A DNA stretch of 64,000 nt, from positions 558,001 to 622,000 of the forward strand of contig JAHLKG010000004.1 of the NCBI GenBank assembly GCA_025526995.1. The letters are read 5' to 3'. Shown in pieces: positions 33,888-62,782 of this stretch (positions are counted from its first letter, which is position 1; every line of letters starts with the position of its first letter). A program made the position numbers and the translations under genes. The notes below the pieces were generated by a model. The model did not search any database and was not told where the DNA came from. It saw only the letters and a list, made by a program, of their open reading frames with translations. The stretch is from Powellomyces hirtus. Taxonomy: Eukaryota > Chytridiomycota > Chytridiomycetes > Spizellomycetales > Powellomycetaceae.

Positions 33888-34577
33888 ATGCCTACTAGAC
33901 AGACTGCAGCAACCTACAACAAAAAAACTGATATCTTCCACACACCCGCTCAGCATCCCGAGTTCTTGAACGATGACACCAACATACCGTACATTTTCCA
34001 TACTCAAACTACCAGTACAATGCAACCTGTAAAGAACCAGAGCTTTGTGAGAGACCTCTCTCAAGTCCTCTGGATGCTAGAACTACCCAATAACAAAAAG
34101 CTGGATGGCAAAGAAGTGGATGTGCAAGAATTCTGCTCCCGCCTGCGTGGAGAAGTTGAAATGGCTGTGCACCAAGGCTGTCTTACCAACATGGACAATG
34201 CACGCAAGTATCTCTCTCACAAGCATTTCACCTGCACCATGCTCACCTGGTCATACTCGGTAGTCGACCGTTACAAGACATTTGATGATTTCTTTAAAGA
34301 ACTCATGGTCTGGTTTGGCACCAAGCAGACAAGCATGGACCGACATATGGCAGTACTCACGCTAAAGAAGAAGCTGCAAGAGATGTCCAGAGCCTTTGTC
34401 ATCCCACTCCGGCCCTTGAACAAGGCATTGCCGAGGGTATCACAGTTGAATGACCAAGAAAAGAAATACACCTTCCTGGAGTGTCACCAGAAGCCATCTA
34501 TGAAGTCCATCCTGGTCAAAGGCAAATGCTGGGACAAAGTGACAATTACATTTGACAATCTACTTGACAAGGTCTGA
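33888..34577 (+). CDS. gag-like or unknown 229-residue frame
   Basis: ATG at 33,888, TGA at 34,575-34,577. The reading frame is uninterrupted and has normal amino-acid composition. The C-terminal two thirds (FDDFFKELMVWFG, then LKKKLQEMSRAFVIPL, then LNDQEKKYTFLECHQKP) resembles the spacing of retrotransposon capsid domains, where a Trp/Phe-rich helix is followed by a short FL-x-GL-like end. No zinc knuckle and no pol follow. Codon and base use differ from the neighbouring elements (more A-rich). Could be a decayed gag or a host fragment. Confidence 0.4.
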   Translation: MPTRQTAATYNKKTDIFHTPAQHPEFLNDDTNIPYIFHTQTTSTMQPVKNQSFVRDLSQVLWMLELPNNKKLDGKEVDVQEFCSRLRGEVEMAVHQGCLTNMDNARKYLSHKHFTCTMLTWSYSVVDRYKTFDDFFKELMVWFGTKQTSMDRHMAVLTLKKKLQEMSRAFVIPLRPLNKALPRVSQLNDQEKKYTFLECHQKPSMKSILVKGKCWDKVTITFDNLLDKV

Positions 34578-37070
34578 AAATGGTACAAGCAAGGAATGTG
34601 TTGGAGTCTGTACCTTTGCCTGTAGGTGCCCAATCCCCAGACTGTGGACGGCGTTCAATAGCCCGGGTTGTGCGGCAGCCAGTGAGGCTTGTTTTAGTTA
34701 GATGGAGCCACAGCTGACCGAGTTGTGGCAGGTTACATCCTGAGGCTGTGTTGTTTGAGTTGAGCCTCTGCCAAGGATCTTGGCAATGCCAGAACAGCCT
34801 CAGCGTACCCACAGAGAACTCAGCATTGCTTAGCACTGCTCAGCCTGGGTCTGCCAAGCCATGCCAAGGGACTTGGCTTCCTTGGCAGTGTACAGATAGT
34901 CTTCTATAAAAGGCCAGTAATCCCTGGCCCCTCCCTCTCAATGAAAAGGCAGTTTCCACACACAATCAACACATTGCTGAACTTCCTGATCATACCTATT
35001 CAACAAAGCCTACATTGCCTCCGACAACCATAACGATTGGCAATTGCACCCCAACGTTTTTGACCAACCCAACATGGGACGGTGGGGAGGCCCACAAGGT
35101 CACACGATTAACCTGTCTGCCACAACACACAACTGCTTAGTCTACTGCTACTGCACAATTGTCTACAATGATTCCTCAGCTGTTTGTCAGAATGCATTCA
35201 CACACAACTGGAGCACCAAAAACTGTTGGGCTAACCCGCCATGGGAACTCACACTGCAAGTCCTCGCCAATGTGAGTGTCGACGGCGCTACCATGACTCT
35301 GATCACACCTGTATGAAAAAATTCCCTCTGGTACCAACAACTACTCAGAATGTGCGGCGACTACCCGAAATTGCTAAGGCATTCAGGCGTACTTTTCACC
35401 CGATGAGGCACCTGAGCTGATGGCTCCGGCATTATCAACAAACCCGCATGGCCCTACATTGGGGCCTGGAGGATATCAGGAGAAGTCAAAGCACAACAAT
35501 GGTTCATAACCGAATCACAGCGTGCATGGTCCCAAAACCACCACAGGCCACTCACAGTATCTTGCATATCTCCTGAAGACTGCTACATTGGAATAACCCA
35601 AGCATCATGCATCCCCTTCAATGAGATCATTGAAATCTGGCAAACGATTCCAGCTGACACAGCCAAGGTACGAACTGCACACCATCACTTGCAACTGCAC
35701 CCAGTGCCATCTTAGCATGACCAACTACACAAACAGGAGAGGGTGCCACAGATGCTAATACACAACAAGGAAACAGAAAGAAGACTGGCTTTGACACCTC
35801 GAAACCAAGAATGCGACCAGCAGACAGGGAAGGGATTCCCAATGCTGTGTGGCACTTGAGAGGAACCGATGAGCTGTCGCTAACCTTGTCATTGTTTACT
35901 GACTTGGACAACACTCCTGTCACAAGAAGCTTCCTCAATCGGTCACAACCATACAAGAATGGAAGGAGAGAGCTGATTGGACATTGCCCTCACAGATGGC
36001 GCAAACAATATGATGAAATGACATGGATTGTGAAAGCTGAGGATGCTTCTGCACAGACAAAAACAGCAAATGAAAGCAAGGCTGGGCTGAGGCATACATT
36101 GCCGGAGCTGACAAAAAAAACGAGACAACGCACATGTCAACAACGATCTCAAGCACATGATGTTCACAGTTGCCTAAATATATGGCAAAATACATGGAAT
36201 TGAAATGGATGGACTAACTGCAGACCTGGCCGCCACTATCAATTGCATCTCAGACAGTTTCTTTAAAGTCCTCCAAGTAAGGACCCCAGTGCATGTATGG
36301 CAACACACAAGCAACATAACAGGAATTGGTTCTGGCAAAGCTACAGAACACATCTATCTGAATCTAGAAATTAATATCCAAGGCATCCAACCACAAAGAA
36401 TGCGATTCAGTATGGTTTGTGGCCCCTGCAGACCCGTCCCTATCAGATACCCAGCCTGAAAGAATACAAGACCAAATTAGACCTGAATTCAACGTACTGG
36501 AATATGATAGCAAGCCTGACAGCCCACAAAGGAAGACACCTATGAAAACCGTATTTGGGAAATTCACCACAGATGGTACCCATCATTACAGCAGCATTTG
36601 CATCCCCAGTTTCCGTGGCAGAGGAAGAAGCTTACCTACCAGCTCACCATGTCATGCACATTGCGGCCAGGCCTGAACAAGAGATGAGTCCCAACAAAAT
36701 GCTACCTTGTCACCAGCAGTAAGAGCATGCAGAATAGCGGCATTTGGTGCCCCAACCAGGTGAAACCAAACTGGAATGGCACCTGGCTATCCCCAGTTGT
36801 TAACCTCGCAAGCAACAGCTACTCGGGTGGATAGATTCTGAAAACTGTGACTTTGCAGTAGAACCAGTACGAGAAGTATTCCTTACCGAACCCAACAGCC
36901 TCAACAACTGGCTGACACAGCAGGCACTGCTTAAGGAAGTAATTCCACGAGGAAAGCTACAGCCCCAGCACTGAAGCTGGCCCACACAGTCCAATTAGAG
37001 GAACTAGATTGCAGAAAACTGTTTCCATGGTCCACAAGGGTGGGAAAGCCTACAAAACTCCCCAAGAACA
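34578..37070. other. unassigned, degenerate protein-like stretches
   Basis: About 2.5 kb without an intact gene. Short plus-strand stretches look protein-coding but are broken by stops and shifts: about 35,100-35,316 (Cys/Trp rich), 35,430-35,670, 35,811-36,270 and 36,200-36,460. Some are followed by GT donors. I cannot assign them to a family. Base composition is more AT-rich than the alpha region. Confidence 0.5.
34769..34911 (+). promoter_or_regulatory. promoter-like block with TGCCAAG inverted repeats and a TATA box
   Basis: TGCCAAG-GAT-CTTGGCA is a perfect 7-3-7 palindrome (34,769-34,785). Further TGCCAAG copies at 34,852 and 34,862 and CTTGGCA at 34,881 follow, then TATAAAA at 34,905-34,911. 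It could be the U3 of a diverged LTR or a host promoter. No confirmed gene starts just after it. Confidence 0.45.
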
Positions 37071-37418: not shown

Positions 37419-40400
37419 ATGCCATTGTCCCGTAGCCCCATTCGGACCAGGTCCAGAACAAACACTGCCCCTGTGCTGATGCAGGATTCTGCAGATGAGG
37501 GTCCTCACAGTGAGGATGACAAGGGTCGAGCCACTCGACCTGATGACAAGGTCGTCACTAAGGCATATCTGGAGAAGGCGCTGTTGGAATCCCAACGCAT
37601 TATTGCCGAAATGCAGGAACGCATGCTGCTGGAATTGCAGCGACTCGCCGCTGAGTCACAAAGGGAGTCTGAGCACCTTGCAGCTTGTTGGTGTGTACAG
37701 ACTCTGTCATCGAGTCACAACTGTGCCATCGCAGGGCGTATGCTGCGCCACTACGATGAGTCACGCGATCACGTGCAAACCACGTGATCAACTCCGATAT
37801 AAGTAGTTTTCCTTCCATGCTTAATATATCGGAGGGACCTTTTCTCTTTTTCTCCAATAGAGCGGGATTAAGTTACTTCGTTGTTTTGCCTAGTCAACTA
37901 CCCTGAAAGCTTCCTCAACTATCTACACAGATACTCTCAGACCAACAGGTTATGAGCCCTGGAATGGTAGGCAACGAAATGAACCCCCGGTACACTCGTA
38001 GTATGTTAAGATGTCTAGCGGGTCGACGGACCCCAGGGTCCAATACACAACAGCAAGCCGTAGATCATGCCGCTAAGGAAAGCGCACGAGTGGCTGGTGA
38101 ATGGACATCACCAAGCAATGGAGGGAACTCTGCCGGTAATGATACACTGGCAGAGCCAACGCCTTTGAGTGTCGACGCCAACGAGGGCAAAGACGCATTG
38201 GAAGGGCGTACCCGAAACATCGACCGACGAGATGTCAAGGTCGAAACCCGTCCCCTATCAAGCAGTACGGATGATCACAGAACGATCAACTACAGTACTC
38301 CAGTGGCATTCCCAAGTGGGGAATCAGTGAACACCGTGCATGTCCGCCCGCGTGGGGCGGACATGGATAGGATAGATCAGCTTGAGAATTCTCTAGCCCA
38401 ACTAACGGAAATGCTCCAAATGAAGTGGCGCATGGATCAGGATGTGAACATCCGGATCACCCCTCAGGTACGTACGGCGCAATGGCGCGTATGCACACCA
38501 TCACCCACTCGCAACGACGGGTTCGCTGCACCGTGGACAGAGTACAATCAGGAGATTGGAGCTCAACAGGAATACCAACGTTCTCCATTCGAACGCCGCC
38601 CTACATCACCGACATCGAGCATACACAGCGTGACGACCAAAATCGTCGACAGTCGAGGTGCGAAGGCGTTCGTGGATGGGACGCTGAAAGATATTGGGTC
38701 CTACAATGGAGAATCCAATATGGTCAAACTTCGAACGTTCATCAACAAGATTGAGACAGTTGTGAAGTATGAAATGGTTCCGCCCGAGTTTCTCGTAGAT
38801 TTTGTGGCTGCGAAACTCACAGGATGGGCATACACTTGGTGGCAGTCGCTCTCCCCAAGTAAAAGAAACGAAATTACGACGTGGCATGACTTTGAAGACG
38901 TTGATTCAGGTAGAACCAACACCGGTCTTAGGTCCGCCCTTCTGGTGCGTTTCGCGCCACGAAACCACACAAGAGATTCGCTGCAGAAACTACGGGAATT
39001 GCGTCCCAAAGGCCGCATGGATGAGTACATCACTCAGTTCAACATGCTGGCATTTTCTCTGCCGAAAACACCGGATTACGTCCTTCAGGATTACTTCATC
39101 AACGCGCTAACACCAGACCTTGCGGCCTTGGTTCAGGCTAATGAAGAAAACATAACTGATTTGAGCAGTTTACAGGCCGCTGCATCCAGGATCGCCGCCA
39201 ACATGGCTAAGAAACCTAGCGGGACCACAACGGATACGCGACCAGGTGCCGGACACACTGACGCCTCTAAGAAACAAAAGGGTGGCAAGACCCACGGGGA
39301 GAAGTCAACGAACGGCAAGAAGGACAAGGAATCTACTCCATCAAACAAAGGCCAAACCCAAAAGTCGGGTTGTTGGGCCTGTGGAGACCCTAAACACCGA
39401 ACACAGGAGTGTGAAGTGTTAAAGAAGTTCAAATCCGAGATGGAGAAGAACAAGACGAAGCAGTTGTCTGATGGTGCTGTTAGCACAAATGCTGTGGAAG
39501 CATTACATGTCTGGGTCCGCCAAGAAAAACCGTATGAAGCCCTCATCGACTCTGGCGCTACGGACCACATGACACCTCACAAAGAGACCTTGGATCACTC
39601 AACCGTGTACAGTGATGTCAGAGCTGTTATGCTTGCTGACAAAACATCACTACCCTCTACAGTTCGAGGTACGGTACGAGTAGAAGTTAACGACTATCCG
39701 AATCCGCTCGAGTTGGGCGGAGTCCTGCATGTGCCAGGATTACGACAAGATCTCGTATCGGTAGCAAAATGTAACAATCAAGGCGTTGACGTGCTCTTCA
39801 AATCGAATGGAGATGTCATTTTCACGCGAGATGGCAAAGATATCGCCAAAGGCGTACGCCGCAACAACACATATTACCTGCAAGGTACGCTACTGTCTGA
39901 AAGTCTGTGGTCAGATTCAGAAGTATGCACGGTTGAAGTGTCTCCTACACTCGCCCATGCTCGTCTTGGACACGTTGGCAAACACGTCCTGGAGAAGATG
40001 GCATCGGTTACGGACGGTTGGTCCATAGTGGGGGATCTAAGTGACTTCAAATATTGTGAAGCCTGCGTGCTAGGAAAAGCCGCTCGTCTTCCATTCTCCC
40101 TTGGTAATGTTGAAAACCAGGGAGATCTGTGAGCTGATTCATTCAGACCTACAGGGACCATTTCGTATCCCTGGTTACGAAGGATCACGCTATTCGCTGG
40201 AGTTCATTGAACACACATCAAGATATGTGACTGTTTTCCCTATTCCTTCAAAGGATTCAGCAGTCATACTCGAAAAGTTTCTCATCTACAAGGCTTGGAT
40301 TGAGAAACAGACTGACCGACAAATCAAGATTCTACGTACGGATCGAGGCACCGAATACTTTGGCGAGGTTCTACAGTACCTACTGAAAAATGGTATCACT

Positions 40401-43400
40401 CATCAAAAGTCCGCGGCCTATTCGAGTCAGCAAAACGGGATTGCTGAACGATGGCATCGCACGGCGCTGGACAGGGTCCGTGCCACCTTCGCGGATACAA
40501 AACTACCCCGAAGATTCTGGCCTGCTCTACTGGTAGCGGCTGGATACATCTATTCCCTTACGTACAACCGCATCAACCAGAAGACGCCGCATGAAATCTT
40601 ATTTGGCCGGCGTCCTGATGTCGCCCATCTTCGGTGTATTGGTTGCGTGGCGTATTCCGTTCTAACTAGCAAAGGACGAGATAAAATGGGGAATCGAGCA
40701 AAGAAGGCTTACTTGGTAGGCTATGCTCAACCCACAGGTGCCAAGGGGTATCTGGTATGGGATCCTGTTACTGACAAGGTCAAAGTGTCACGAGATGTGA
40801 TCTTCAAAGAAGACTTGGGACTCGAACCCAAATATCAGCAGGATCCAGCACATCTTGATCTTCTAGATGAGGAGAGTCAGGAGGATGACGTCGAATATGC
40901 CGTGGAGGCGATTATCGACGAGCACCGCAGTAAGGTGCACACAAAAGAGTACTTGGTTAAGTGGGAGGGATATCAAGAACCTACCTGGGAGTCCCAACTT
41001 TCACTACTCAACACTACAGCATTGGATGACTGGGAGAATCGAGTAGCCGCGTACGATGTTGGCACACGACGAAATGACCCCATCGCTGCATACGCCGCCT
41101 GCGCGTGGACTCAAGCAACGATCAACGATGACGCCATGACATGGAAGCAAGCAATGAAAACCCCTCAGAAGGAGGAATTTCTCAAGGCTGCACGCATTGA
41201 GTACCAATCCCTGGTCGACAATGGTACATGGGAGCTCACCAAGCGTCCTCGTAACAAGCGCGTGATTGGAACAACATGGGTCTTTCGAACAAAGGTCAAT
41301 CCCGATGGCACCTTTAACAAGTTCAAAGCCAGAGCAGTGGCTCAAGGCTTCTCTCAACAACCCGGTCGCGACTTTGGTGATACATACTCACCTACGCTAC
41401 CATTCAGCGCTACACCTCTTCTTGGCATATTGTGTTCAGCACGGGCTGGACATCCACAGTATGGACGCTGTTACCACCTTCCTTAACAGTGATATTGATA
41501 AGGATATCTATATCGAGCAGTTTGAGGGATTCGAAGATCCGGATCACCCCAAAGGCGATTGGGTCCTGAAGCTACTGAAAGCTCTCTACAGCCTGAAGCA
41601 ATCACCTCTTCTTTGGTATGAGACCTTGAGGACTGCACTGTTAAAGCTCGGCTACGAAGCGGTTTCTGTATGCCCATGTATCTTTTTCAAGTACGCGACA
41701 GACGACCATACACCTCCGTCGAACGACAACTTGGTCCTTATTCTCGTCTTCGTCGACGACCTGCTCATTGCAGCAAAGGATCCGGAGATTCTGGCGAAGA
41801 GCAAAATGGAGCTACATTCGAAGTTCAAGTTTACGGAACAAGGTCGCGTAACCAGTCACCTTGGTCTCGTCTACAAATATGACTTCGACTCTCCTGTTTG
41901 TACCCTCGAAGTCTCAAATGTCAAGTACATCGACAACGCTCTCAAACAATTTGGCATGAGCGACTGCCATCCTGTCTCCACTCCGTACGCCATGTCAGCG
42001 CGTAACCAACAACCGGAGGATTCGACACCATTCACGAATCTCAAAATGTATCAGGAAGCAGTGGGGGTCCTCACTTGGGCCTCCATCACATGGCGATGGG
42101 ATATCGCCACTGCAGTCGGTTACGTTGCGCGACGCGTGGTCACACCTACCAACTCCGACTGGAACAATGTTAAGCGCATTTTCCGCTATTTGAAGGGTAC
42201 CCGCAATTATGCCCTCAAGTTTACATCCGAAAGAAATGATCCGCGTGGCCTACGCGTATTCACGGATGTGGATTATGCAGGAGAACTCACCGACCGTACG
42301 TCCACTACGGGTATCTTGGCCCTTTACAATGGGTTTCCTGTTCTGTGGAAAAGCAGCAAGCAGAAGTGTACCGCCCAAAGTATGACCGAAGCGGAGTACA
42401 TTGCTGCCAGCACCGGTCACAACGAAGCCAAATGGCTACGCCAACTCTTGGCGGAAGTTTTGGGACCTCAACTGGATTTCAAATCTCGACCGGTCCCTCT
42501 CCATGTTGATAATCAGAGCGCCGGGGCCTTGATTCAGTCTAAGGCTATCAACCAGCGCACCAAGCACATTGACGTTCGGTACCACGCTATACGCGATTCG
42601 TTCGCGAAGCAAATTATCGAAATCATCGACACCAATACGGAAGATCAATTGGCAGACATCTTTACAAAGCCTTTTCCAGCTGTCAAACATAAGGACACTG
42701 TCCTGAAGATTACGAACGGGACTCATATATTTGATGAGAGAATACGCAATGAGGGCATGCCTACGGAAGCACACCGAGCCCAAGTGTTACTCGCTGAATG
42801 TCAGGAGAATTCCTCACAACACTGGCTTACCTTGGCATCTACACCGCAATTGCGGAACCCGAACCCATGCCCCCCCCAGGAGGATGGCCCTGCCCCTCCT
42901 CCATCATCCTCATCGCTTGAGGGTGAGCGTCGGCTTGGAGAGATCGGTGATCCCTCCAACTCCTCGGCTTCCCCCTCCTCCTCCTCCTCTTCCTCATCAT
43001 TATAGGGAGCCTCCCGCTCCAGGATGTCCCACATCCTCTTCACCTCCGCTGCTGACTTCTTGTCTGCAGCCTTCTTCTTCGCCTGGGCTTTACCCTTGCC
43101 CTTCCCAACAGCCATCTTCCAGTCCTGCCGGTCCTCTAGCACGGATCTCAGTCCATCAAGCATCCCGGTCACCCGTGCACGACCAAGAGGCATACCAGAT
43201 CTCGACCGGTCCTTCACCCTGTCTTTCGCTTGCTCGATATGGCGTTCAAGGACCTCTTGATGGTCCTTGCGGTAGAACTGTCGGGCATACGCCGCCGACA
43301 TTGTTCGAATCTCCGCTCGGGACAACCCCGCAGCGGGTGCACCTCCCAATGGCGCAGAGGGCACCACTGCCGATGGCACAGCCGGAGCCGTGGTCGCCGC

Positions 43401-47261: not shown

Positions 47262-47673
47262 TGTGAAAGGGTGCTGGTCGGGTGGGGTTATAGGCATAAT
47301 ATACGCTATATGGCGTCTTGGGTACCGACGTGGCTTTCAGGTGAGTTCGGCTATGTGCTGGGGTGTGCTAGTTTGCCTAGTGCTAAGGGCAAGAGTAGAA
47401 GTGCTGCTCTGTATGAATACCTCTATCCTTAGTACTAGACTACAGGCCTCTGCATATAGACCTAGGAGAATTGTCCTCCAGTGTACCACAGTAATGGGGG
47501 TGTATACAACTCTGTTCTTCACCCGTTTATATACTCATGCATTGCCATAGCAGAGAATACGGCATGTGCCATCCAGTCTCTGTACATCTGGCATCATGCA
47601 TGAGAGTGATACAAAACACGTGTACTTAACTAACTAACTAACTAAAGGACCCTTAAGTACCGTCCCTTTCACA
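47262..47673 (-). repeat. E 3' LTR
   Basis: 412 bp with a perfect 10 bp terminal inverted repeat, TGTGAAAGGG/CCCTTTCACA. Contains CACGTG at 47,617-47,622 and a TAAC repeat. The minus-strand purine tract AAAAAGGGGGGAGGA (47,688-47,674) abuts it, confirming orientation. Confidence 0.93.
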
Positions 47674-49430
47674 TCCTCCCCCCTTTTTGACCTTCCTGCA
47701 ACCAAGTCCCACGTCTAGTCCTGTAAGAATTCAGTCTGCCATAGTGCTTGGCACGGTTGTAAAAATGTTTCTTTCCGCATCTAGCTCTTTCAATTGTGGG
47801 TCGCTCACTCAACTTCATTTCCTCGGGCGCGGGCCTGGGAGGAAAGATGTTACTCTGGTGGATTTTGTGCATCTTGGGGACGGCCTTTGGAAGTTGCATT
47901 GAGCCATCAGCGGCCAGAGTCTGGATGCCGCCAATGGGCCATAGCATTCGAGGTCCTTCCCATTGCCTGAGGCGATACCCGGTATCATGGGCTTTGTAAA
48001 ATGTCTCCTGCTCAGATACGACTTAAGTGTACCGTTCCTCACGGGGCAATTCCAACCGGGTCACTTTGTGTCGCATTCGTTCGAACCGGGCAATGACTAT
48101 GTCTCCAGGACGGGTGCGCACCCTAATCTCTTGGTTGGGGAGGATGAGGTCGCCACTGTGCCCGGGAGTGAAGTTACCGTGGACCGCCATGATAGCCCAC
48201 TTGTGGTTGTTGACATCAAAGTGGGAGCCGGAAATTGCATTGAAGTTGTTCGTCATGAGGTTCCCGGGTGCGTTGGGGGTGAGCATGGCATCACGGATTT
48301 GTTTGGGAGCATCTGCAATCCAGTGTCGCCAGTTTGTACTGTGGATGTTGTCCTTGATGGCTGCCATGCGTGCGTAGAGGCCACACTGCTCGTTCGCCAT
48401 CTTGGCGTGGTCCCATAAGAAGGATCCGGCTGCTGCGATGTTTGGAATGACAGGCAAGCGTGACATTGAGCCCTGCGAGACCCAGGCTCCAGCGTGGAGG
48501 ATGGCACCCGTTTTCGTGTCGCAGGCATTCTTCATGGCCATCCTGGTATCCATCATTGTCAGGTTCGTGTAGTAGAGATTGTCATAGACACGGGTCATGT
48601 AGTCGTCCATGTGCTTGGTCGCGCCTACTGTGGGGTCGCTAATAAAGAACAAGAGGGGTGTCTTCTATCCATGCGTCGCTGTCCACTAGGTAGAATTGCA
48701 GGTACTTCCGACGTTCCATGGGTGCAATCGCCTCTTTCTCCATTTGGCACCGCTCATCAGCGGGTGGGGGACCCCGGAATCATATGGCATTGGGGGCGGC
48801 TATGGTGTCAAACCAGGTTGCAAATGCATTTGACCATTTCGGACGGTGTATTGCCATCCAGGGGGTGTCTCTTTGTCCCGTAGTGATGATTGTAGGCACT
48901 GGCCACAGAAGCGGTGGTGGGGGCGAGAGGGTCACTGTTCCTACTCTGCCAGCTGAGCTCGTGGTTTGAATGCCAAGTTCCCTGAGGCAGTCACACACGG
49001 GGCAGAACCATTGTATGTACTCCAGATCCTGTTTGTCAACATCAATGTCAATGCAAATCATGTGGAACTATTTCCGGTCGCAATCCGGGTTGTCGCATTC
49101 AATCATTGGTCCGTAAACATCTAGGTCTTCTATTCTCTTGCAGAAGCAGAATTTGTTGTTGTGCGGGAAAGCCGGTCCGGTCATGTCGATGAGATCCTGT
49201 TCTAGCGGGGATATGCCAGTGGATGTCCTGTTTTTTGCTCGCCGGGGAAGTCGCATGGAGGGTCCTGCTTGTATCGTAGTTTCTGCTAGGCCAGGGAATA
49301 TGGAGCTTAAGGATGTTCTTGCTCTGACTGTCCCAGACCTGAGGCTTCTTTCCGTGCTTGTGAGGTATTGTGAACTTCGGGCAATTGCACAGCTGCCTGT
49401 GCCTCCCCAGGGGTCCGTTGGTGCTGACAT
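47669..49430 (-). pseudogene. E accessory ORF: PHD finger plus 2OG-Fe(II) dioxygenase-like domain
   Basis: One frame of about 587 codons from ATG 49,430 to a TGA inside the LTR, broken in this copy by TAG (49,070-49,068), a one-base shift near 48,665 and TAA (48,025-48,023). The PHD finger is at about 49,140-48,975: CFC, then ECDNPDC, then FHMIC, then WFCPVC, a C4HC3 layout; the TAG replaces the expected Trp before FH. The second half has SHFDVNN (His 48,223-48,221, Asp 48,217-48,215), then GDLILPN, RPGDIVIARF and RHKVTR (His 48,070-48,068). This order matches a double-stranded beta-helix iron dioxygenase, most like the TET/JBP-type enzymes linked to basidiomycete transposons. Substrate unknown. 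The basic C-terminus runs to the purine tract. Confidence 0.78.
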
Positions 49431-49433
49431 TGC

Positions 49434-49890
49434 TTGTTGCTAAGTTTGGTGTCAGGTAGTTGTTTTTGAGTTGCTATGCGTGCGCTGTAAGCGAGTCTTC
49501 TCTTTACTGCCGGAGATTTTTGTGTGAGCAGGCAGGAGTTATGCTTCTCCTTTTACCATCTGATTCCTGGCCCGAGTTTATCAGTGTTTGGTTGCTTCGT
49601 TCGGCTCAACGGTTTGGCGGATACGGCTTTTTCCGTTTATCGCTGCTTCTCAGTCGCCTTTTAGCCACTATCAGCGGCACATTGTTTGTGGACTTTTGCG
49701 TCTGTCACTCCCATTTTGTGGTGTCCCAGTCGCCACTGGGACTATACTGTTTGTTTGTTTCCTTTGAAATCGCTTCTGTTCTCCCTTGGCCGTTGTGGAC
49801 TGACGTTCGGAATCCTATTTTTGTGCCGTTCCTTTTTGGAAGAGGATGCCGCTACCCGCGGGGCTTGTGGGCAGGAACCGGCCATGCTAC
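49434..49890. other. E spacer between chromodomain and accessory ORF
   Basis: About 460 bp with no convincing frame on the minus strand. It could hold a promoter or an internal initiation signal for the accessory ORF; I see no clear motif. A plus-strand open stretch here (49,460-49,903) shows no domain and is probably chance. Confidence 0.5.
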
Positions 49891-51397
49891 CGTCATTTCG
49901 TAGGCTTGTATGGCCTCAGGAGTGCGTTGTAAGTTCTCCTGTGTCTTCCAGGTGTTGTGCTTTGCCGGCCAGTATTTCCACTTCACAAGAAACTCCCGGC
50001 CATCTTTAGTGTCTTGGTGGTTTAAGATCTTCTCGACTTCGTATGCGTTCTCCCCTTCGAGTTTGTCAATTTTGTGGTTGGAATCTTCGTCCAGGTCAAT
50101 TCTGCGGCAGGTCAGTTCTTGAGAAGTCCCGCACGCTTTCGGTCTGAATGGTTGGCAGGTTAATTTGTTGGCTGTCTCTGCAAGTTTGAGTTCTTCCTCG
50201 AGGATCTCCTGTTGCGTTAGTGAGGGGATTTCGTTGGAATCGACAGGTCGCCTTTCAGTCCAATATCGTAGTCTGCGTGCGTGGGCCTGGCGTTAGATTA
50301 CTTCGGTAGGGCTGAGGGTTTCCAGTAGTTTAAAGGTTGGTCCGTTGCAGGATATAATGCGGTGCAGACCAGTCCATTTGACTGCCATTTTTTCCACTGC
50401 TGTTTCATTCTCTTTTCGAGCAGACTTGGTGAATTGCGGTACGGCAGGCCACACTTTGTCACTGATGCGGAAACCGTAGTCCTTCATGTGAGAGACCCTG
50501 TTGTACCAGGTCTTCTGTGTCTTTTCGGCATTCTTAATGTTTTCTCTTGCTAGCGCCCAGGCTTTTTGTAATCGAAACTGCGTTTCCACTCTGTAGTCGC
50601 ACATCTCAATGCTTGTTGGTGCTTCTTCCAGGTTGTCAGTGGGTGTAGTAGGTCCTTTGGCAGCTGGGGGTCCTGTCCAAACATGAGAAAGAAAGGGGAC
50701 TCGTGTGTGGATTGGTGCATAGCCGTGTGGTAAGCAAGCAGGTTGTATGGTAATTGCGTGTCCCAATTGTCGTGTGAGTATTTATTCATGTACGTTTGCA
50801 GCATTCTTACCAGTGTACCGTTGAACTGTTCTGTCAAACCACTGGCTTCTGGGTGGTACAGCGAGGTGAAAGCGGGGTGCGCCGTGAGCAGACTCAGGAT
50901 TCGATGTTGCAAGTCGCTGATAAAGGGTTGCCCTCTGTCAGTGACGATGCTTCCTGGTATGCCGAAGCGACAGAATACATCCTCTACTAGCCGTCCTGAC
51001 ACGCGATTCGCCGTGATGTGGGGGACCGCAAAGGCTTCAACCCACTTAGTCATGTAGTTCATCAGTATGACGATGTAGTTGTTGCCTCTTGCAGTTGTTG
51101 GTAGCTTCCCAATGATGTCTATACCAATCTTCTCCCATGGGTCGTTGACAATGATTGGCATTAATGGTCCTACTCGGTTCTTTGGTAATGGTTTGTGTTC
51201 TAAACATTTCGCACATGACTTGACGTGGTTGACTACATCTGAATGCCAGCCTGGCCACCAGTAAGACTCTTGCACCTTCTGAAGTCTTCCGTCTCTCCCC
51301 AGGTGTCCAGCTAGTAGGTCATCGTGGCATGACTCAATCGCCTTACGTCGTAGACCGTTGGGAATGAGCAACTGTTGAAAGATGCGTGGTCGGAATC
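49890..51397 (-). pseudogene. E pol: integrase, GPY-like module and chromodomain
   Basis: Integrase zinc finger has HDDLLAGHLG and CAKCLEHK (near 51,320-51,200). Core: GIDIIG, VTDRGQPF and the Glu of SGLTEQFN, all catalytic residues kept. A frameshift near 50,640 and TAA at about 50,295-50,297 break the frame before the chromodomain. Chromodomain at about 50,045-49,895 (AYEVEKIL, FLVKWKYW, NTW). It places E among chromoviruses, a different lineage from alpha. Confidence 0.9.
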
Positions 51398-51637
51398 TGT
51401 TAGCACGTACAGACTCTGTCATCGAGTCACAACTGCGCCATCGCAGGGCGTATCACGCGATCACGTGAACCCACGTGATCAACTCCGATATAAGTAGTTT
51501 TCCTTCCATACTTAATATATCGGTGGGACTTTTCTCTTCTTCTCCAATAGAGCGGGATTAAGTTACTTCGTTGTTCTGCTCAGTCAACTACCCTGAAAGC
51601 TTCCTCAACTATCTACCCAGATACTCTCAGACCAACA
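51398..51637 (+). repeat. A2 5' LTR
   Basis: TGTTAGCACG to CAGACCAACA. Contains GATCACGTG and CACGTGATC arms around AACC (51,459-51,480) and a TATAAGTAG box. Primer site GGTTATGAGCCCTGA follows at 51,638-51,652. Confidence 0.95.
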
Positions 51638-51641
51638 GGTT

Positions 51642-54600
51642 ATGAGCCCTGAAATGGTAGGCAACGAAACGAGCACCCGGTACACTCGTAGTATGTTAAG
51701 ACGCCTAACGGGTCGACAGACCCCAGGGTCCAATATGCTACAACGAGCGGTAGAACGTGCCACAAAGAAAAGCGCACGAGTGCCTGGTGAATGGACATCA
51801 CCAGACAATGGAGGGAAATCTGCTGGTGACGATACACTGGCAGAGCCAACGCCTGTGAGTGTTGACGCCAACGAGGGCGACGACGCATTGGAAGGGCGTA
51901 CCCGAAACATCGACCGACACGATGGCAAGGTCAATACCCGTCCCCTATCAAGCAGTACAGATGATCACAGAACGATCAACTACAGTACTCCAGCGGCATT
52001 CCTAAGTGGGGAATCAGCGAACACCGTGCATGTCCGCCCGCGTGAGGCGGACGTGGATAGGATAGATCGGCTTGAGAATTCTCTAGCCCAACTAACGGAA
52101 ATGCTCCAAATGAAATGGCGCATGGATCAGGATGTGAACGTCCCGATCAACCCTCAGGTGCGTACGGCGCAACGGCGCATACGCACACCATCACCCACTC
52201 GCAACGACGGGTTCGCTGCACCGTGGACAGAGTACAATCAGGAGATTGGAGCTCAACAGGAATACCAACGTTCTCCATTCGAACGCCGCCCTACATCACC
52301 GACATCGAGCATACACAGCGTGACGATCAAAATCGTCGACAGTCGAGGTGCGAAGGCGTTCGTGGATGGGACGCTGAAAGATATTGGATCTTACAACGGG
52401 GAAGCCAATATGGTCAAACTTCGAACGTCCATCGACAAGATTGAGACAGTTGTGAAGTAGGAAATGGTTCCTCCGGAGTTTCTCGTGGATTTTGTGGCTA
52501 CGAAACTCACAGGATGGGCATACACTTGGTGGCAGTCGCTCTCCCCAAGTAAAAGGAACGAAATTACGACGTGGCATGACTTTGAAGACGTTGATTCAGG
52601 CAGAACCAACACCGGTCTTAGGTCCGCCCTTCTGGCGCGGTTCGCGCCACGAAACCACACTAGAGATTCGCTGCAGAAATTACGGGAATTGCGTCCCAAA
52701 GGCCGCATGGATGAGTACATCACTCAGTTCAACATGCTGGCATTTTCTCTGCCGAAAACACCGGATTACGTCCTTCAGGATTACTTCATCAACGCGCTAA
52801 CACCAGACCTTGCGGCCTTGGTTCAGGCTAATGAAGAACACATAACTGATTTGAGCAGTTTACAGGCCGCTGCATCCAGGATTGCCGCCAACATGGCTAA
52901 GAAACCTAGCGGGACCTCAACGGATACGCGACCAGGTGCCGCACACACTGACGCCTCTAAGAAACAAAAGGGTGGCAAGACCCACGGGGAGAAGTCAACG
53001 AACGGCAAGAAGGACAAAGAATCCACTCCATCAAACAAAGGTCAACAATCACAAAAGTGGGGTTGTTGGGCCTGTGGAGACCCTAAACACCGGACACAGG
53101 AGTGCGAAGTGTTAAAGAAGTTCAAATCCGAGATGGAGAAGAACAAGACGAAGCAGTCATCTGATGGTGCTGTTAGCACAAATGCTGTGGAAGCATTACA
53201 CGTCTGGGTCCGCCAAGAACAACCGTATGAAGCCCTCATCGACTCTGGTGCTACGGACCACATGACACCTCACAAAGCGACCTTGGATCACTCAACCGTG
53301 TACAGTGATGTCAGAGCTGTTATGCTTGCTGACAAAACATCACTACCCTCTACAGTTCGAGGTATGGTACGAGTAGAAGTTAACGACTATCCGAATCCGC
53401 TTGAGTTGGGCGGAGTCCTGCATGTGCCAGGATTACGACGAGATCTCGTATCGGTAGCGAAATGCAACGATCAAGGCGTTGACGTGCTCTTCAAGCCGAA
53501 TGGAGACGTCATTTTCACGCGAGACGGCAAAGATATTGCCAAAGGCGTATGCCGCAACAACGCGTATTACCTGCAAGGTACGCTGCTGTCTGAAAGTCTA
53601 TGGACGGATTCAGAAGCATGCACTGTTGAAGTATCTCCTACACTCGCTCATGCTCGTCTTGGACACGTTGGCAAACACGTCCTGGAGAAGATGGCATCGG
53701 TTACGGACGGTTGGTCCGTAGTGGGGGATCTAAGCGACTTCAAAGATTGTGAAGCCTGCGTGTTAGGAAAAGCCGCTCGTCTTCCATTCTCCCTTGGTAA
53801 CGTTGAAACCAGGGAGATCTGCGAGCTGATTCATTCAGACCTACAAGGACCATTTCGCATCCCTGGTTACGAAGGATCACGCTATTCGCTGGAGTTCATT
53901 GAACACGCATCCAGATACGTGACTGTTTTCCCTATTCCTTCAAAGGATTCAGCAGTCATACTCGACAAGTTTCTCATTTACAAGGCGTGGATTGAGAAAC
54001 AGACTGACCGACAAATCAAGATCCTACGCACGGATCGAGGCACCGAATACTTTGGCGAGGTTCTAGAGTACCTATTGCAAAATGGTATCACTCATCAAAA
54101 GTCCGCGGCCTATTCGAGTCAGCAAAACGGGATTGCCGAACAATGGCATCGCACGGCGCTGGACAGGGTCCGCGCCACCTTCGCGGATACGAAACTACCT
54201 CGAAGATTCTGGCCTGCTTTACTGGTAGCGGCTGGATACATCTATTCCCTTACGTACAACCGCATCAACAAGAAGACGCCGCATGAAATACTGTTTGACC
54301 GGCGTCCTGATGTCGCCCATCTTAGGCGTATCGGTTGCGTGGCGTATTCCGTTCTAACAAGCAAAGGACGCGATAAAATGGGAAATCGAGCAAAGAAAGC
54401 TTACTTGGTAGGCTATGCTCAACCCACAGGTACCAAGGGGTATCTGGTATGGGATCCTGTCACTGACAAGGTCGAAGTGTCACGAGACGTGATCTTCAAA
54501 GAAGACTTGGGACTCGAACCCAAATATCAGCAGGATCCAGCACATCTTGATCTCCTAGATGAGGAGAGTCAGGAGGATGACGTCGAATACGCTGTGGAGG

Positions 54601-57173
54601 CGATTATCGACGAGCGCCGCAGTAAGGTGCACACGAAAGAGTACTTGGTTAAGTGGGAGGGATATCAAGAACCTACTTGGGAGTCCCGACTTTCACTACT
54701 CGATACTACCGCACTGGATGACTGGGAGAATCGAGTAGCCGCGTACAATGTCGGCACACGACGAAATGACCCCATCGCTGCATACGCCGCCCGCGCGCGG
54801 ACGCAAGCAACGATCAACGAAGACGCCATGACATGGAAGCAAGCGATGAAAACCCCTCAGAAGGAGGAATTTCTCAAGGCTGCACGCATCGAGTACCAAT
54901 CCCTGGTCGACAACGGTACATGGGAGCTCACTAAGCGCCCACGTCACAAGCGCGTAATCGGAACAACATGGGTTTTTCGAACGAAGGTCAATCCCGATGG
55001 CACCTTTAACAAGTTCAAAGCCAGAGCAGTGGCTCAAGGCTTCTCTCAACAACCCGGTCGCGACTTTGGTGATACATACTCACCGACGCTACCATTCACA
55101 GCACTACGCCTCTTCTTGGCATATTGTGTTCAGCACGGGCTGGACATCCATAGTATGGACGCTGTCACCGCCTTCCTTAACAGTGATATTGATAAGGATA
55201 TCTATATCGAGCAGTTTGAGGGATTCGAAGATCCGGATCACCCCAAAGGCGATTGGGTCCTGAAGCTACTGAAAGCTCTCTACGGCCTGAAACAATCACC
55301 GCTTCTTTGGTATGAGACCTTGAAGACTGCACTGTTAAAGCTTGGCTACGAAGCGGTTTCTGTATGTCCGTGTATCTTTTTCAAGTACGCGACAGATGAC
55401 CGTACACCTCCGTCGAACGACAACTTGGTCCTTATTCTCGTCTTCGTCGACGATCTGCTTATTGCAGCGAAGGATTCGGAGATACTGGCGAACAGCAAAA
55501 TGGAGCTACATTCGAAGTTTAAGTTTACGGAACAAGGTCGCGTAACCAGTCACCTTGGTCTCATCTACAAATATGACTTCGACTCTCCTGTTCGTACCCT
55601 CAAAATCTCAAATGTCAAGTACATCGACGACGCTCTTGCACAATTCGGCATGAGCGACTGCCATCCTGTCTCCACCCCGTACGCCGTGTCAGCGCGTAAC
55701 CAACAACCGGAGGATTCCACCCCATTCACGAATCTCAAAATGTATCAGGAAGCAGTGGGGGTCCTCACTTGGGCCTCCATTACCTGGCGATGGGATATCG
55801 CCACTGCAGTCGGTTACGTTGCGCGCCGCGTGGCCGCACCTACCAACTCCGACTGGAACAATGTTAAGCGCATCTTCCGCTATTTGAAGGGTACCCGTGA
55901 TTATGCCCTCAAGTTTACCTCCGAAAGAAATGATCCGCGTGGCCTACGTGTATACACAGATGCGGACTATGCAGGAGAACTCACCGACCGGACGTCCACT
56001 ACAGGTATTTTGGCCCTTTACAATGGGTTTCCTGTTCTGTGGAAAAGCAGCAAGCAGAAGTGCACCGCCCAAAGTACGACCCAAGCGGAGTATATAGCTG
56101 CAAGTACCGGTCACAACAAAGCCAAATGGCTACACCAACTCTTGGCGGAAGTTTTGGGACCTCAACCGGATTACAAATCTCGACCGGTCCCTCTCCATGT
56201 CGATAATCAGAGCGCCGGGGCCTTGATTCAGTCTAAGGCTATCAACCAATGCACCAAACACATCGACGTTCGGTACCACGCTATACGCGATTCGTTCGCA
56301 AAGCAAATTATCGAAATCATCGACACCAATACGGACGATCAACTGGCGGACATCTTTACGAAGCCTTTCCCAACTGTGAAACATAAGGACACTGTCCTGA
56401 GGATTACGAATGGGACTCATATATTTGATGAGAGAATACGCAATGAGGGCGCGCCTACGGAAGCACACCGAGCGCAAGTGTTACTCGCTGAATGTCAGGA
56501 GAATTACTCACAACACTGGCTTACCTCGGCATCTACACCGCAATTGCAGAACCCGAAGCTATGCCCAAGGAGGATGGGCCTGCCCCTCCTCCATCATCCT
56601 CATCGCTTGAGGGTGAGCGTCGGCTTGGAGAACCCGGTGGTCCCTCCAACTCCTCGGCTGCCCCCCCCTCCTCCTCCTCCTCCTCATCATTATATGGAGC
56701 CTCCCACTCCAGGATGTCCCACATCCTCTTCATCTCCGCTGCAGACTTCTTGTCCGCAGTCTTCTTCTTCGCCTGGGCTGTACCCTTGCCCTTCCCAACC
56801 ACCAGCTTCCGGCTCCGCCGGTCCTCTAGTATGGACCTCAGTCCATCAAGCGTCCCGGTCGCCCGTGCGCGACCAAGAGGCGTACCAGACCTCGCCCGGT
56901 CCTTCACCCGGTCTTTTGCCTGCTCAATGTGACGTTCCAGGACCCCTTGACGGTCCTTGCGGCGGAACTGTCGGGCATGCGCCGCCGACATCGTTCGAAT
57001 CTCCGCTCGGGACAACCCCGCAGCGGGTGCGCCTCCCTGTGGCGCAGAGGGCACCACTGACGACGGCACAGCAGGAGCTGTGGTCGTCGCAGGGGCAGTT
57101 ACCGGCGGTCCCGTCTTTCTCGCCGTCTGCTTCGCTTTGCCCGAACCTGACAACTACACCGGCACATAGTTAG
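51642..57173 (+). pseudogene. A2 gag-pol, one nonsense codon (best copy of family A)
   Basis: About 1,843 codons in one frame, broken only by TAG at 52,458-52,460 where A1 and B have TAC. Landmarks: knuckle CWACGDPKH at about residue 475, protease DSGATDHM at about 534, integrase HSDLQGP, TDRGTEY and NGIAEQW, chromodomain at about 981-1029 (54,582-54,728), RT FVDDLL at about 1268, RNase H YTDADYAG. All catalytic residues I can check are present. The gag ATG overlaps the primer site. The tail after about 56,450 is the complement of the antisense gene. Confidence 0.94.
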
Positions 57174-57336: not shown

Positions 57337-57576
57337 TGTTAGCATGTACAGACTCTGTCATCGAGTCACAACTGCGCCATCGCAGGGCATATCACGCGAT
57401 CACGTGAACCCACGTGATCAACTCCGATATAAGTAGTTTTCCTTCCATACTTAATATATCGGTGGGACTTTTCTCTTCTTCTCCAATAGAGCGGGATTAA
57501 GTTACTTCGTTGTTCTGCTCAGTCAACTACCCTGAAAGCTTCCTCAACTATCTACCCAGATACTCTCAGACCAACA
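57337..57576 (+). repeat. A2 3' LTR
   Basis: 240 bp, starting TGTTAGCATG, preceded by GAGTGGGGG and followed by the GAATC target duplicate. Confidence 0.95.
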
Positions 57577-59007
57577 GAATCCTATGTTGTCGAATTGGTG
57601 AATTCGGTAGAGTGTGTCTTCAAGTAGGATAAGGCGGTGCGCTGTCTTCCTGATGTTGTCCTGCTGTTCCTTAGTACCGTCGAGTGTTCCGTTAATGAGA
57701 AAATGGTAAACTGCAGCGAAGTCTTTGTCTCTTTGCTGTTGTTGGGGGATGTCATCAGCGAGCTTCTGCACTAACGGAACACTTGCAGTCAGAAACACCT
57801 CCTTGTCTGGCTCTTCTTTGTGATAGGATATGACTTCCACCCCACTCCCGGTTTCAGAAGCGGCTGGCTCGGTTTGAGTCGAAATCGTACAGGATTTGGG
57901 TGGGTCGTCATGAAGACGCAATAAAAAGTCCGGCGTCCTATGAGCCAGTGATTTTCCAGGTTTGTGAACCATTTTGAAGTCATAATCGGCTGAGGCGTAG
58001 CTCCAGCGGGCCCATTTCCCTGATAAGTTGCCGTTTTTTTGTAGTGGCAGCAGGGGCGAGTGATCACTTTCAACCGTGAAGTTGTTGCCCCATAGGTAAG
58101 AGTCGAGTGTTTGAATGGCCCAGGCGACTGCTAGACCTTCTCGTTTTGTGTTAGAGTAGCGAGTCTCGGGGTCGGTGAGGGACTTACTCAAAAATGCCAT
58201 CGGAATTCTGGCATTGTCCTTAATCTTATACAGTGCCGCTCCTAGGCCTTGCTTGCTTGCGTCAATGGAGAGTACCATGGGTATATCCTTCTCTGGGAAC
58301 TCCAGTATAGCTGCTTCTTTCATTGCCGTCTTCAGTTCTTTGAAAGCGCTTTGCTCTTCAGCCGTCCATCTCCATTGGACGTCTTGTTTTGTCAACTGGT
58401 ACAATGGCCGGGCAATGGTGCCGTAGTTTTGGATGTGCTTGTGATGAAAAACGCACATACCCAAAAAGGTTTGTACGTCTGATACGGTTTTTGGAACACC
58501 AATGGCTTGTATGCCGTCGACTTTTGCTGGGTCTAATGCTACACCGCGGCCGTTGACAATCTTGTCCAGGAATTTCAATTCGCTTTGTGCAAAATGGCAT
58601 TTCTCCAACTTAATCCTCAGTCCAGCGTCGACGATCTCCTCTAACACACGGCTTATGTGTGTCATGTGTTCTTTGAATGTGTCAGAGTATACGATGATGT
58701 CGTCCACGTAGACCAGGCAGAATTGGTATTTCAGGCCGGCTAACATGGCGGGACACGTTGGAATGTCAGAGGGGAGTTCTTCAAGCTGAAGGGGAGTTTG
58801 TTGTATTCGAATAGGCCGTGCGGTGTGCAGAATGCCATGTAGTGTTTGTGTTCTTCATTGATGGGAATTTGCCTGAATCCCCAGCGTAAGTCCATTGTCG
58901 TGAAGTATCGTTTCCCAGCAAGGTAGTCGATAGTGGAGTCAGCCCGCAGTAGCGGATACCTGTCCGGAATGGTGTGTTCGTTTAACTCTCGATAGTCTGT
59001 GACAAGG
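57577..59007 (-). pseudogene. E RT and RNase H, second copy
   Basis: Same sequence and ends as 25,809-27,239 with few differences. VYVDDIIVYSD lies near 58,708 and RNase H near 58,270. Here the fragment is in its original context: across A2 it continues in frame into the E integrase. A shift near 58,750 breaks the RT frame as in the first copy, so that lesion predates the duplication. Confidence 0.93.
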
Positions 59008-60003: not shown

Positions 60004-62782
60004 TTACTCATTCGGGAGCTCCGTCATGGACGCTTTCGTCATTGGCGTGATGGTGCTGTCGTAGTGCTTGATGCACATGCTTTCGCGATGGTATTTGAAT
60101 GCCGGGGCCGGTAAAGGCTTCGTAAGTGAGTCGGCTACCATTTCAGCGGTGGGTAAGTACTCCAGATGAATCTCCTTGTCGATGTGATCACGAATGAAGT
60201 GATGTCGAATGTCGATGTGCTTGGTACGGGCGTGATGCACGGGATTCATTGCCAACGAGATGCATGACTGATTGTCTTCGTAGATCGTTGTAGGTCGAGC
60301 ATTTTCGTCGAGATATTCGGGGATTTGGAGTTCTTGCAGAAGTGAGCGAAGCCAAATTGTCTCTTGAGTGGCGAAGGAAAGTGCCATGTATTCAGCTTCG
60401 GTAGATGAGAGAGCAACGGTGGGTTGGCGCTTCGAAGCCCAAGTAACGGGGCCCGCATTTCCAATGTAGAAAAGGTAGCCAGTGATTGACCGTCGATCAA
60501 TGATGTTGTTTCCCCAATCGGCATCGCTGTAGCCGCGAAGGGTGACGTTATTTCCGCCGATGCAGAGGCTGTAATCTGATGTTCCCCGTAGGTAGCGAAG
60601 AACGCGCTTTGCAGCTTGCAGATGTTGAGGCGAAGGGTTGCTTGCGAAGCGAGAAAGCATACTGACTGCGACAGCGATGTCAGGATGCGTGCATATCATC
60701 AGGTACATGAGAGAACCAACGATTTCGCAATATTCTCCTTCTTGCGGGTTAGGTGAAGTCTTTGTATTTTCGACTTTGTAGGGTTTGAGCTTGGTCAGGT
60801 CCATCGGAGTGTTGACGGGCTTGCAATCTTGCATACCAAAGCGCTTGAGGATGTCATTTACATATGACTCTTGATCGAGGTAGATGACGTGCCTTGAGTA
60901 GTTGCGTCGAACTCTCATTCCCAGGTAGTGGTTGACTTCACCTAGGTCTGTCATGTTGAACTCGTTGTGCAGGGATGTCTTAATTAACGAGATTTCCGAT
61001 TTGGTCTTTGCAAAAATGAGGAGATCGTCGACGTAGACGGAGATGTACTGCGATGAGTCACTTTCAGGTAGAGTTCTGATGTAGACGGCATTGTCATTTG
61101 CCAGGCGCTTCAATCCCAAAGAAGTCAGTTCTTTGTGAAGTAGGGAGTACCATTCGCACGGGGCTTGTTTCAGACTGTAAAGGGCCTTTCGGAGTCGAAG
61201 GATGGTCCCAGGCGGAAAGCCAGAGCCTTCAGGAGCATAGATTAGGATGGTCTCGGTAACGATCCCATTCAGGAATGCGGTTACTACATCCATTTGATGG
61301 CATTTCAAGCCTAGACTGGCGGCGAGAGCGAGGAGGACGCGTTGGGTGGCTATCTTGGCAACCGGAGCGTAGGTTTCGTTATAGTCGATACCGTAGCGTT
61401 GTTCGAAGCCTTTCACTACAAGCCGGGCCTTGTATCGTTGGGGTTGACCATTCAGGTCTCGCTTGATCTTGAATACCCATTTGGTGCGGATGGGCCGTTG
61501 ATTGTGCGGTAAGGATTTGGGGTTAATGACTTCCCATGTATCATTGGTATGAAGAGACTTCAGTTCGGCATTTATGGCCTCGGTCCACTTTGGCGCGTCG
61601 TCTGATGAGAGCGCTTGTTTGTAGGTTTGGGGTTCTTCGGTACTTGCAGCCAAAAGAGCGCTCGCCGTCTTTTCGTTGATGTAGTCAGCGAAGACCGTCA
61701 AATGATTGACATTTTCGAGCGGTTCCCATGTATTGTCTTCGTCTTCGAATCCTAGCCATTTGCAGAGGAATTCGGGGCCTTCCGGGCCATCACGTGAGTC
61801 GAGAATCTCTTCGACTTTGTAGAGTTCTTCGGGCGGAATGTAGTCTTTCGCGAGTTCGAGTGCTGAGATTTCGTCGAACGTTACATCGCGAGAAATGACT
61901 ATTTCTTGACGGTTGTCATCCCAACAGCGGTAAGCGCCGTCAAATTCGTAACCGATGAGTTTGAGACGTGTGGCGCGTGGTGCCAACTTTGAGACTTGTT
62001 TTCTCTTGACGAGATGCACGAAGGCATCGGCCCAAATCACACGAAGGTGAGAAAGTGAGGGCTCTTCGCCGTTGAGCCGTTCGTACGGCGAAATGTTGTT
62101 ATTGGACTTGTGGGGTAGGCGATTCCGTAAGTAGACTGATGTAGCCGCTAACTCGGTCCAGAGTTGTTTCGGGATGCCGTATGAGTGTTCCAATGAACGA
62201 ATGGTGTCGAACAGGGTGAGGTTGAACCTTTCAGCTACACTGTTGGACTGTGGGGAATCTGCAGCGGTGAGTTCGTGCAGGATGCCCTTTTTCGAAATGA
62301 ATTCTTTCAGATCGTGATTGACAAACTCCCCCCCTCGATAGGAATGAAGTCGTCTGACCCTTTCGTTGGTCTGTTTTTCGATGAAATTGATGAATTCAAT
62401 CAATTTTGCAGTAGATTCGCTCTTCGTCTTCAAGAAGAAGATCCATGTGAAGCGTGAATAGTCATCGATCACAACGAGGGCATATTTCTCATCGCCAACC
62501 GCGGGTATGTGCGGACCGTTCAGGTCGAAATGTAGGCGATCGAGTGGCGTCTTGGACCGTGTCATCGTACCGTTGAATGGTGAGCGCTTGTGCTTACCAA
62601 ACTCGCAACCTTTGCAGACTTCGTTGGTCATTGGGAGCTTGAGTTGCTTCATGATGTGAGTGCCAGGATGGCCCAAACGGTGATGCCAGAGGGTTCCTTC
62701 GTTGACAGGAGAAGAGGGACCAAAACAAGCCCCAGAAGAGGCCGCCGAAGCAGCAGCGGAGGCAGTGCTAAAGCTGCCTGCC
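60004..62782 (-). pseudogene. D2 pol: integrase, chromodomain, RT, RNase H
   Basis: Open from the end of the linker to the stop at 60,004. Integrase finger HHRLGHPGTH and CKGCEFGK; FDLNGPH kept; SYRGGEF in place of SDRGGEF (62,340-62,338) as in D1; Glu of NSVAERFN kept. Chromodomain about 61,821-61,673. RT YVDDLL near 61,033. RNase H YSDADWG. Joined to gag only through a homopolymer frameshift near 62,780-62,795. Confidence 0.92.

Follow-up and report, generated by a model that had tools for sequence, protein, structure and literature searches.

A PHD finger and a TET/JBP-like dioxygenase domain encoded between pol and the 3′ LTR of a Ty3 chromovirus family in Powellomyces hirtus

Does an LTR retrotransposon family carry, as a gene of its own, a chromatin reader joined to a dioxygenase, and what could such a gene do for it? 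The question is raised by a stretch of 64,000 nucleotides of Powellomyces hirtus contig JAHLKG010000004.1 (positions 558,001 to 622,000 of the forward strand; hereafter the window), where the pol gene of a Ty3 element, here called E, is followed on the same strand by an additional open reading frame (ORF). Our reading, which we hold to be probable, is that the E family is a chromovirus with an ING-like PHD finger and a TET/JBP-like anti-silencing gene between pol and the 3′ LTR. We regard the anatomy of E as firm and infer the anti-silencing role.

The assignment of E to the Ty3 chromoviruses by the initial annotation was borne out, as Pfam recognizes RVT_1, RT_RNaseH, Integrase_H2C2, rve, and Chromo in a related element on contig C1 and also in the window, where the element is interrupted by a Copia insertion. 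All features of E in the window lie on the minus strand. Its upstream pol section (RT, RNase H, and the start of the integrase; PF00078, PF17919, and PF17917) is found at 57577–59003, with the integrase start at 57577–57819, and positions 57824–59003 are 87.9% identical to the C1 element. The Copia element, with LTR matches at 51398–51638 and 57337–57577, splits the integrase gene, which resumes at 50550–51452 (H2C2 zinc-binding domain, PF17921, 68.7 bits; rve core, PF00665, 24.2 bits, below the cut-off of 32.6) and is followed by the pol end with the chromodomain at 49855–50292 (PF00385, 64.3 bits, E = 9.6e-18). Homology to the C1 element ends at 59003, and the 5′ part of E was found neither past this point nor in the 8 kb of contig that come next.

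Downstream of the chromodomain, after a spacer of ~400 bases, the accessory ORF occupies 47768–49439, as delimited by tblastn against a 563-aa open frame of the C1 element. The C4HC3 PHD finger followed by HFD...RPGDIV...RHKV that had been described after the E chromodomain was confirmed here, the ORF reading in order FCFC, ECDNPDC, FHMIC, WFCPVC, and then HFD, RPGDIV, and RHKV. The copy is broken: alignment with the C1 frame revealed three in-frame stops and one frame break, and one of the stops interrupts the PHD finger (48993–49148; PF00628, 18.4 bits for the downstream half alone). The TET/JBP-like 2OG-Fe(II) dioxygenase domain was placed at 48010–48510, with approximate boundaries, by hhalign alignment with a Tet_JBP-like family that this genome also contains. 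Its putative ligand codons lie at about 48223–48215 (HxD, as HFD), 48070 (second His, in RHKV), and 48034 (Arg), the positions of HFD and RHKV being taken from an ungapped alignment. A polypurine tract (AAAAAGGGGGGAGGA, 47674–47688), identical in C1, C11, and both duplicates of the window copy and different by one base in C2, adjoins the 411-bp 3′ LTR (TGTGAAAGGG...CCCTTTCACA, 47263–47673), which matches the LTR pairs of C1 and C11 at 86–87%. Since the tract and the LTR come directly behind the ORF, the ORF sits between the chromodomain and the 3′ LTR. The window element retains these two 3′ features; LTR pairs and target site duplications (TSDs) are seen in C1 and C11.

Other E-family pieces are present in the window, namely a second RT-to-integrase copy at 25809–27235 (minus strand) and 5′ parts with gag and a Dam-like ORF at 33803–36924 (plus strand, opposite to E), making the window a nest of rearranged elements.

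The proposal that the ORF belongs to the element and is not a local insertion was upheld by its recurrence inside LTRs, by the TSDs of C1 and C11, and by selection. When the genome (29.26 Mb) was scanned with an open 213-aa piece of the window ORF, the domain matched 21 places at E ≤ 1e-3 (22 candidates, all scored). The C1 element (C1:1828595–1839141; LTRs 98.4% alike; 4-bp TSD CTAC) carries the ORF as the 563-aa open frame and encodes RT, RNase H, integrase, and a C-terminal chromodomain in that order, as read by Pfam. The C11 element (LTRs 98.6% alike; 4-bp TSD CAAA) carries the ORF without its N-terminal part, and on C2 the copy has kept the end of the ORF only, together with two LTR matches. 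An LTR match was present near the ORF in 12 of the 15 ORF-matching sequences fetched, directly adjoining it in seven of those 12; the 15 comprise the window and stretches no longer than 10 kb, and should not be counted as independent insertions. The copies at C4:527 kb and on C35 are >99% alike to the window copy and have the Copia insertion site in common with it, and for these reasons look like segmental duplicates of the window.

The search for relatives lacking the ORF, suggested at the outset, covered four further relatives. Two of them, on C6 and C3, keep PHD remnants; in the other two, on C7 and at C8:408 kb, PHD-TET sequence was not detected, but because of their truncation or decay they provide no evidence that the ORF was ancestrally absent. 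None of the relatives fetched from this genome was intact and yet lacked the ORF. More distant Ty3 integrases (25–43% identical) were >5 kb from every ORF match in a partial scoring of 73 of the 532 candidates. No relatives were found in viral contigs, and a single match in a prokaryote locus, lying in a rhamnosidase domain region, was discarded as chance. On C28 and C8 (L030–L033), six equal-scoring E-remnant copies lie beside Copia RT at a spacing of mostly 6,639–6,640 bp, with one step of 1,800; this array is a tandem or segmental amplification.

Comparison between copies shows that the window ORF has a real coding history under purifying selection. Against the C1 frame, its dN/dS was 0.21 over 259 codons and 0.21 over 296 codons, covering both halves, and similar values were obtained for the window duplicates (0.18–0.21), C11 (0.25), and the C28 copies (0.21). 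Older or shorter pieces gave 0.13 for C2, 0.13–0.15 for C17, 0.14–0.15 for C14, 0.19 for C29, 0.07–0.17 for C3, 0.16 and 0.31 for C6, and 0.25–0.47 for C15; the ranges omit a 41-codon C28 piece (0.14), an out-of-frame C35 segment (0.54), a 29-codon C6 piece (0.86), and two pieces without a defined dS. In several older copies, dS exceeds 1 with a low dN/dS. The pol values on window copies (0.13–0.16 for integrase-chromodomain, 0.12–0.19 for RT, and 0.09 for RNase H) show that selection has maintained the ORF in much the same way as pol, if slightly less strictly. Two comparisons between C1 and C11 go against this trend, gag with 0.77 (29 changes) and the Dam-like ORF with 0.53 over a partly misaligned segment; versus window remnants, the same genes gave 0.11 and 0.15–0.18, respectively.

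The PHD finger reported by the initial annotation is well supported in the C1 frame, where it scores 25.4 bits against PF00628 (curated cut-off 24) with a C4HC3 pattern. With the C1 PHD piece as query, 23 PDB sequences were retrieved at E ≤ 0.01, the best being ING4 (E = 1.7e-9), with ING5 and Yng2 also among them. By its sequence, the finger is ING-like: it shares the Cys/His pattern and sequence of the ING-family fingers (ING4, ING5, and Yng2) but differs from them in having insertions at two places, one separating the first and second Cys pairs and one ahead of the last pair, and in being fused to a dioxygenase. ING PHD fingers read H3K4me3, and by analogy the E module may therefore read active-promoter chromatin.

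Direct searches of the dioxygenase half gave no relevant match in Pfam, NCBIfam, or PHROGs. PF12851 (Tet_JBP) and PF20515 (2OG-FeII_Oxy_6) had no match at E ≤ 10 in the C1 frame, the window piece, or a 10-member E alignment, and the AlkB-like PF13532 had no Pfam match in the C1 frame. PDB sequence searches returned nothing meaningful; the prostaglandin synthases that they brought up (E about 0.5) match away from the motif. When the genome was scanned with PF20515 and PF12851, no E copy was among the matches, and PF20515 had no match in the control genomes either; the KDZ profile (PF18758) matched neither in this genome nor in the control genomes.

The C1 frame contains, at positions 410–473, an HxD...H...R ligand motif, which alone is superfamily-wide. 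A 2OG-oxygenase-type motif, defined after the sequence had been seen, arose in 6 of 200,000 shuffles of the C1 relative and in none of the 449 window ORFs of at least 60 aa; these include the window's own E copy, which misses the motif because it departs at the GG position. The window copy, like those of C1 and C11, retains both HxD and the second His. A single-sequence structure model of this half had a mean pLDDT of 32, too low to be informative on a double-stranded beta-helix fold.

The profile search suggested for the dioxygenase part thus had a divided outcome: the expected direct match did not appear, and a profile-profile match to a Tet_JBP-like family did. A permissive Tet_JBP scan of the genome (E ≤ 10) found five places outside E (E 0.0017–0.019), and three of these, scanned with PF12851, gave E values of 1.5e-4 to 7.7e-4 (19–22 bits; cut-off 34.9). 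The Tet_JBP-like reference family reads KHRDL...GWCAVVCLGDF...GDIIFIRSFALEHFV...ERFTIVF. Using hhalign, the E family aligned to it with a score of 32.2 (probability 33%), or 33.8 (46%) with more members, and the C1 sequence alone reached 42.1. HxD, GNF/GDF, GD, the second His, and ER-T-V all stand in register across the alignment, in agreement with the initial proposal of a TET/JBP-like 2OG-oxygenase motif. Column permutation gave a mean of 13.5 and a maximum of 25.6 (0 of 600 reached 33.8), reversed profiles gave 14.7 and 14.8, and shuffled C1 sequences gave at most 25.6 (0 of 400 reached 42.1). Single sequences of E and of the Tet_JBP-like family scored a weak 20.4 against each other, and matching the E profile to a single reference sequence gave 20.2, within the null (maximum 27.9 of 200), which means that the link rests on the profile. 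As there is no direct Pfam match and the link runs through profiles, the domain is named TET/JBP-like and is not filed as a TET/JBP member; the case for this likeness is good and depends on profiles.

Tet_JBP-like proteins outside the E elements form a second, repeated family in the genome, at C23:199941, C6:241723, C1:161609, C26:73228, C3:1363174, C19:625105, C20:397708, and C8:757532 (L047–L054). Several of its copies are 88–95% identical, so this family is probably mobile.

Could the C-terminal domain be another kind of 2OG-Fe(II) oxygenase, for instance an AlkB-like demethylase or an enzyme resembling prolyl hydroxylases whose substrate is RNA or protein? The HxD...H...R arrangement is common to the superfamily and the direct Tet_JBP match is missing, and there is a published precedent in a Ty3 element: part of the report on orchid Ty3/Gypsy elements (PMC9289625) describes an extra ORF with an m6A RNA demethylase-like 2-ODD domain. 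Those elements resemble E in combining a Ty3 element with an additional 2OG-Fe(II) oxygenase ORF, but their domain is of the ALKBH-like RNA demethylase type and occurs in plants, whereas the E domain failed to align with the one AlkB-like protein examined. Indeed, the E profile scored 17.3 with one P4H-like protein of the genome (out of register and within the null) and 14.9 with one AlkB-like protein of the genome (out of register; null maximum 21.2 of 200), as against 33.8 with the Tet_JBP-like family, a comparison that is uneven because each rival class is represented by one sequence and the Tet_JBP-like family by several. We consider such an enzyme rather unlikely.

It is more improbable still that the ORF, as a true component of the family, now encodes a chromatin or targeting factor that docks through its PHD finger without catalysis. 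The PHD finger and the chromodomain are both readers, and HFN replaces HFD in the C28 and C8 copies, which are both decayed remnants; against this reading stand the retained HxD and second His (in the window copy as in C1 and C11) and the equal constraint on the C-terminal and PHD parts (dN/dS 0.21 each). A local accident, in which a host gene fragment was inserted once into E and then spread by segmental duplication, would suit the three nearly identical copies with their common Copia-embedded insertion site (window, C4:527 kb, and C35), but it is contradicted by the independent insertions of C1 and C11 with their own TSDs, by the diverged subfamilies in which the ORF lies beside the 3′ LTR, and by the high dS and low dN/dS of several older copies, and we give it almost no credence.

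For a TET/JBP-like anti-silencing gene, the methylation setting of the genome is of interest. The genome has 14 C5 cytosine methylase matches, all above cut-off. CpG transitions account for 4 of the 7 differences between the LTRs of C1 and for 5 of the 6 in C11, pooling to 9 of 13 (P 4e-6 against an ad hoc expectation of 12.9%); a third, messier LTR pair, that of C2 (362 columns), has 5 of 20 and stands outside the pooled test. Between the 5′ regions of C1 and C11, 80 of 210 substitutions are transitions in a CpG/TpG context. The CpG ratio is 0.73 in the window E stretch, below the 0.91 of the whole window; the C1 element, at 0.88–0.90, shows no such reduction. This CpG pattern is compatible with methylation-driven decay, and is no proof of methylation.

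Equal-scoring C5 methylase matches occur on a large and a small contig (C13:797799–798638 and C50:20464–21303), as do equal-scoring weak AlkB-like matches (C9:366706–367297 and C49:7184–7775), suggesting that the assembly contains duplicated or haplotype contigs.

In the reading that we favor, the PHD finger would anchor the enzyme to the tails of histone H3 (at H3K4me, if the analogy with ING proteins holds), and the dioxygenase would oxidize methylated bases on the DNA of the element, 5mC and perhaps 6mA, as reported for CcTET. Oxidation of these bases could relieve both methylation-based silencing and C-to-T decay, so that the promoters of the element would stay active. E would then be the retrotransposon counterpart of the TET+ DNA transposons. 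Parts of Kojima 2025 (PMC12730594) describe fungal TET+ DNA transposons including Kyakuja, Dileera, Zisupton, hAT, Plavaka, and Helitron, propose that transposon TET counters methylation-based silencing, and remark on the lack of TET+ retrotransposons, for which the high copy number of retrotransposons is given as a possible reason. The likeness to the system in that source (PMC12730594) is a transposon-borne TET/JBP-type dioxygenase, as proposed for E; the difference is that E is an LTR retrotransposon, with an integrase and a chromodomain, in which the dioxygenase is fused to a PHD finger. That E could itself be a TET+ DNA transposon, with a DDE transposase or HUH nuclease and DNA-transposon termini, was discarded, as it has LTRs, RT, and a Ty3 integrase.

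No report of a TET+ retrotransposon was found in the titles and abstracts of the open-licence PMC literature searched. If our reading is true, a PHD-TET-like gene in a long-lived chromovirus family would end the absence of TET+ retrotransposons. It would also make the counter-defence idea testable, in a genome with C5 methylase matches and CpG-biased decay in two young copies. Capture of a DNA-methylation enzyme by retroelements has a parallel in the retrotransposons with cytosine methyltransferases of dinoflagellates and charophytes, as described in part of de Mendoza 2018 (PMC5890265), with the difference that those elements carry a writer and E would carry an eraser.

A candidate writer is present in the E family as well. 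Between gag and RT, the C1 element has an ORF (L027 2382–4079, minus strand) that matches PF05869 (Dam) with 24.8 bits and E = 1.9e-5, below the cut-off of 28.1, and the C11 match is 19.8 bits, likewise below it. In the window, a Dam-like segment (34990–35313, plus strand; PF05869, 12.4 bits) belongs to the other E-family remnant, on the strand opposite to E, of which positions 35011–36924 are 71.9% identical to the C1 element. The Dam-like motif reads WANPPW in C1 and the window and WANPLW in C11; a PDB search with the ORF returned nothing meaningful. According to passages of PMC3783388 and PMC6338049, Dam-like domains are known from DIRS elements, which have a PF05869-type domain such as the E relatives may have (WANPPW, between gag and RT). 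DIRS elements have a tyrosine recombinase and lack a protease and a DDE integrase, as partly covered in PMC3783388; E, by contrast, is equipped with LTRs, a chromodomain, and an integrase of the Ty3 type.

Should the Dam-like domain prove genuine as well, a single element would combine a writer with an eraser. We put forward as a tentative possibility that this chromovirus lineage edits its own epigenome, with a Dam-like adenine methyltransferase as writer and a PHD-guided TET/JBP-like eraser. The Dam-like enzyme could mark fresh cDNA, and the TET/JBP-like dioxygenase would remove host marks, or the element's own, after integration, with the chromodomain alongside for targeting. Among reported LTR retrotransposons, such an element would be the first to have a TET/JBP-type enzyme.

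Chromodomains are also present in three Copia-type elements of the window, at 40077–41486 and 52461–57173 on the plus strand and 60007–62808 on the minus strand. Our literature search found no report of chromodomain-bearing Copia elements in basidiomycetes. The three domains lie between the integrase SH3-like domain and RVT_2 and match Pfam Chromo with 32.7, 33.1, and 45.4 bits (cut-off 25.1).
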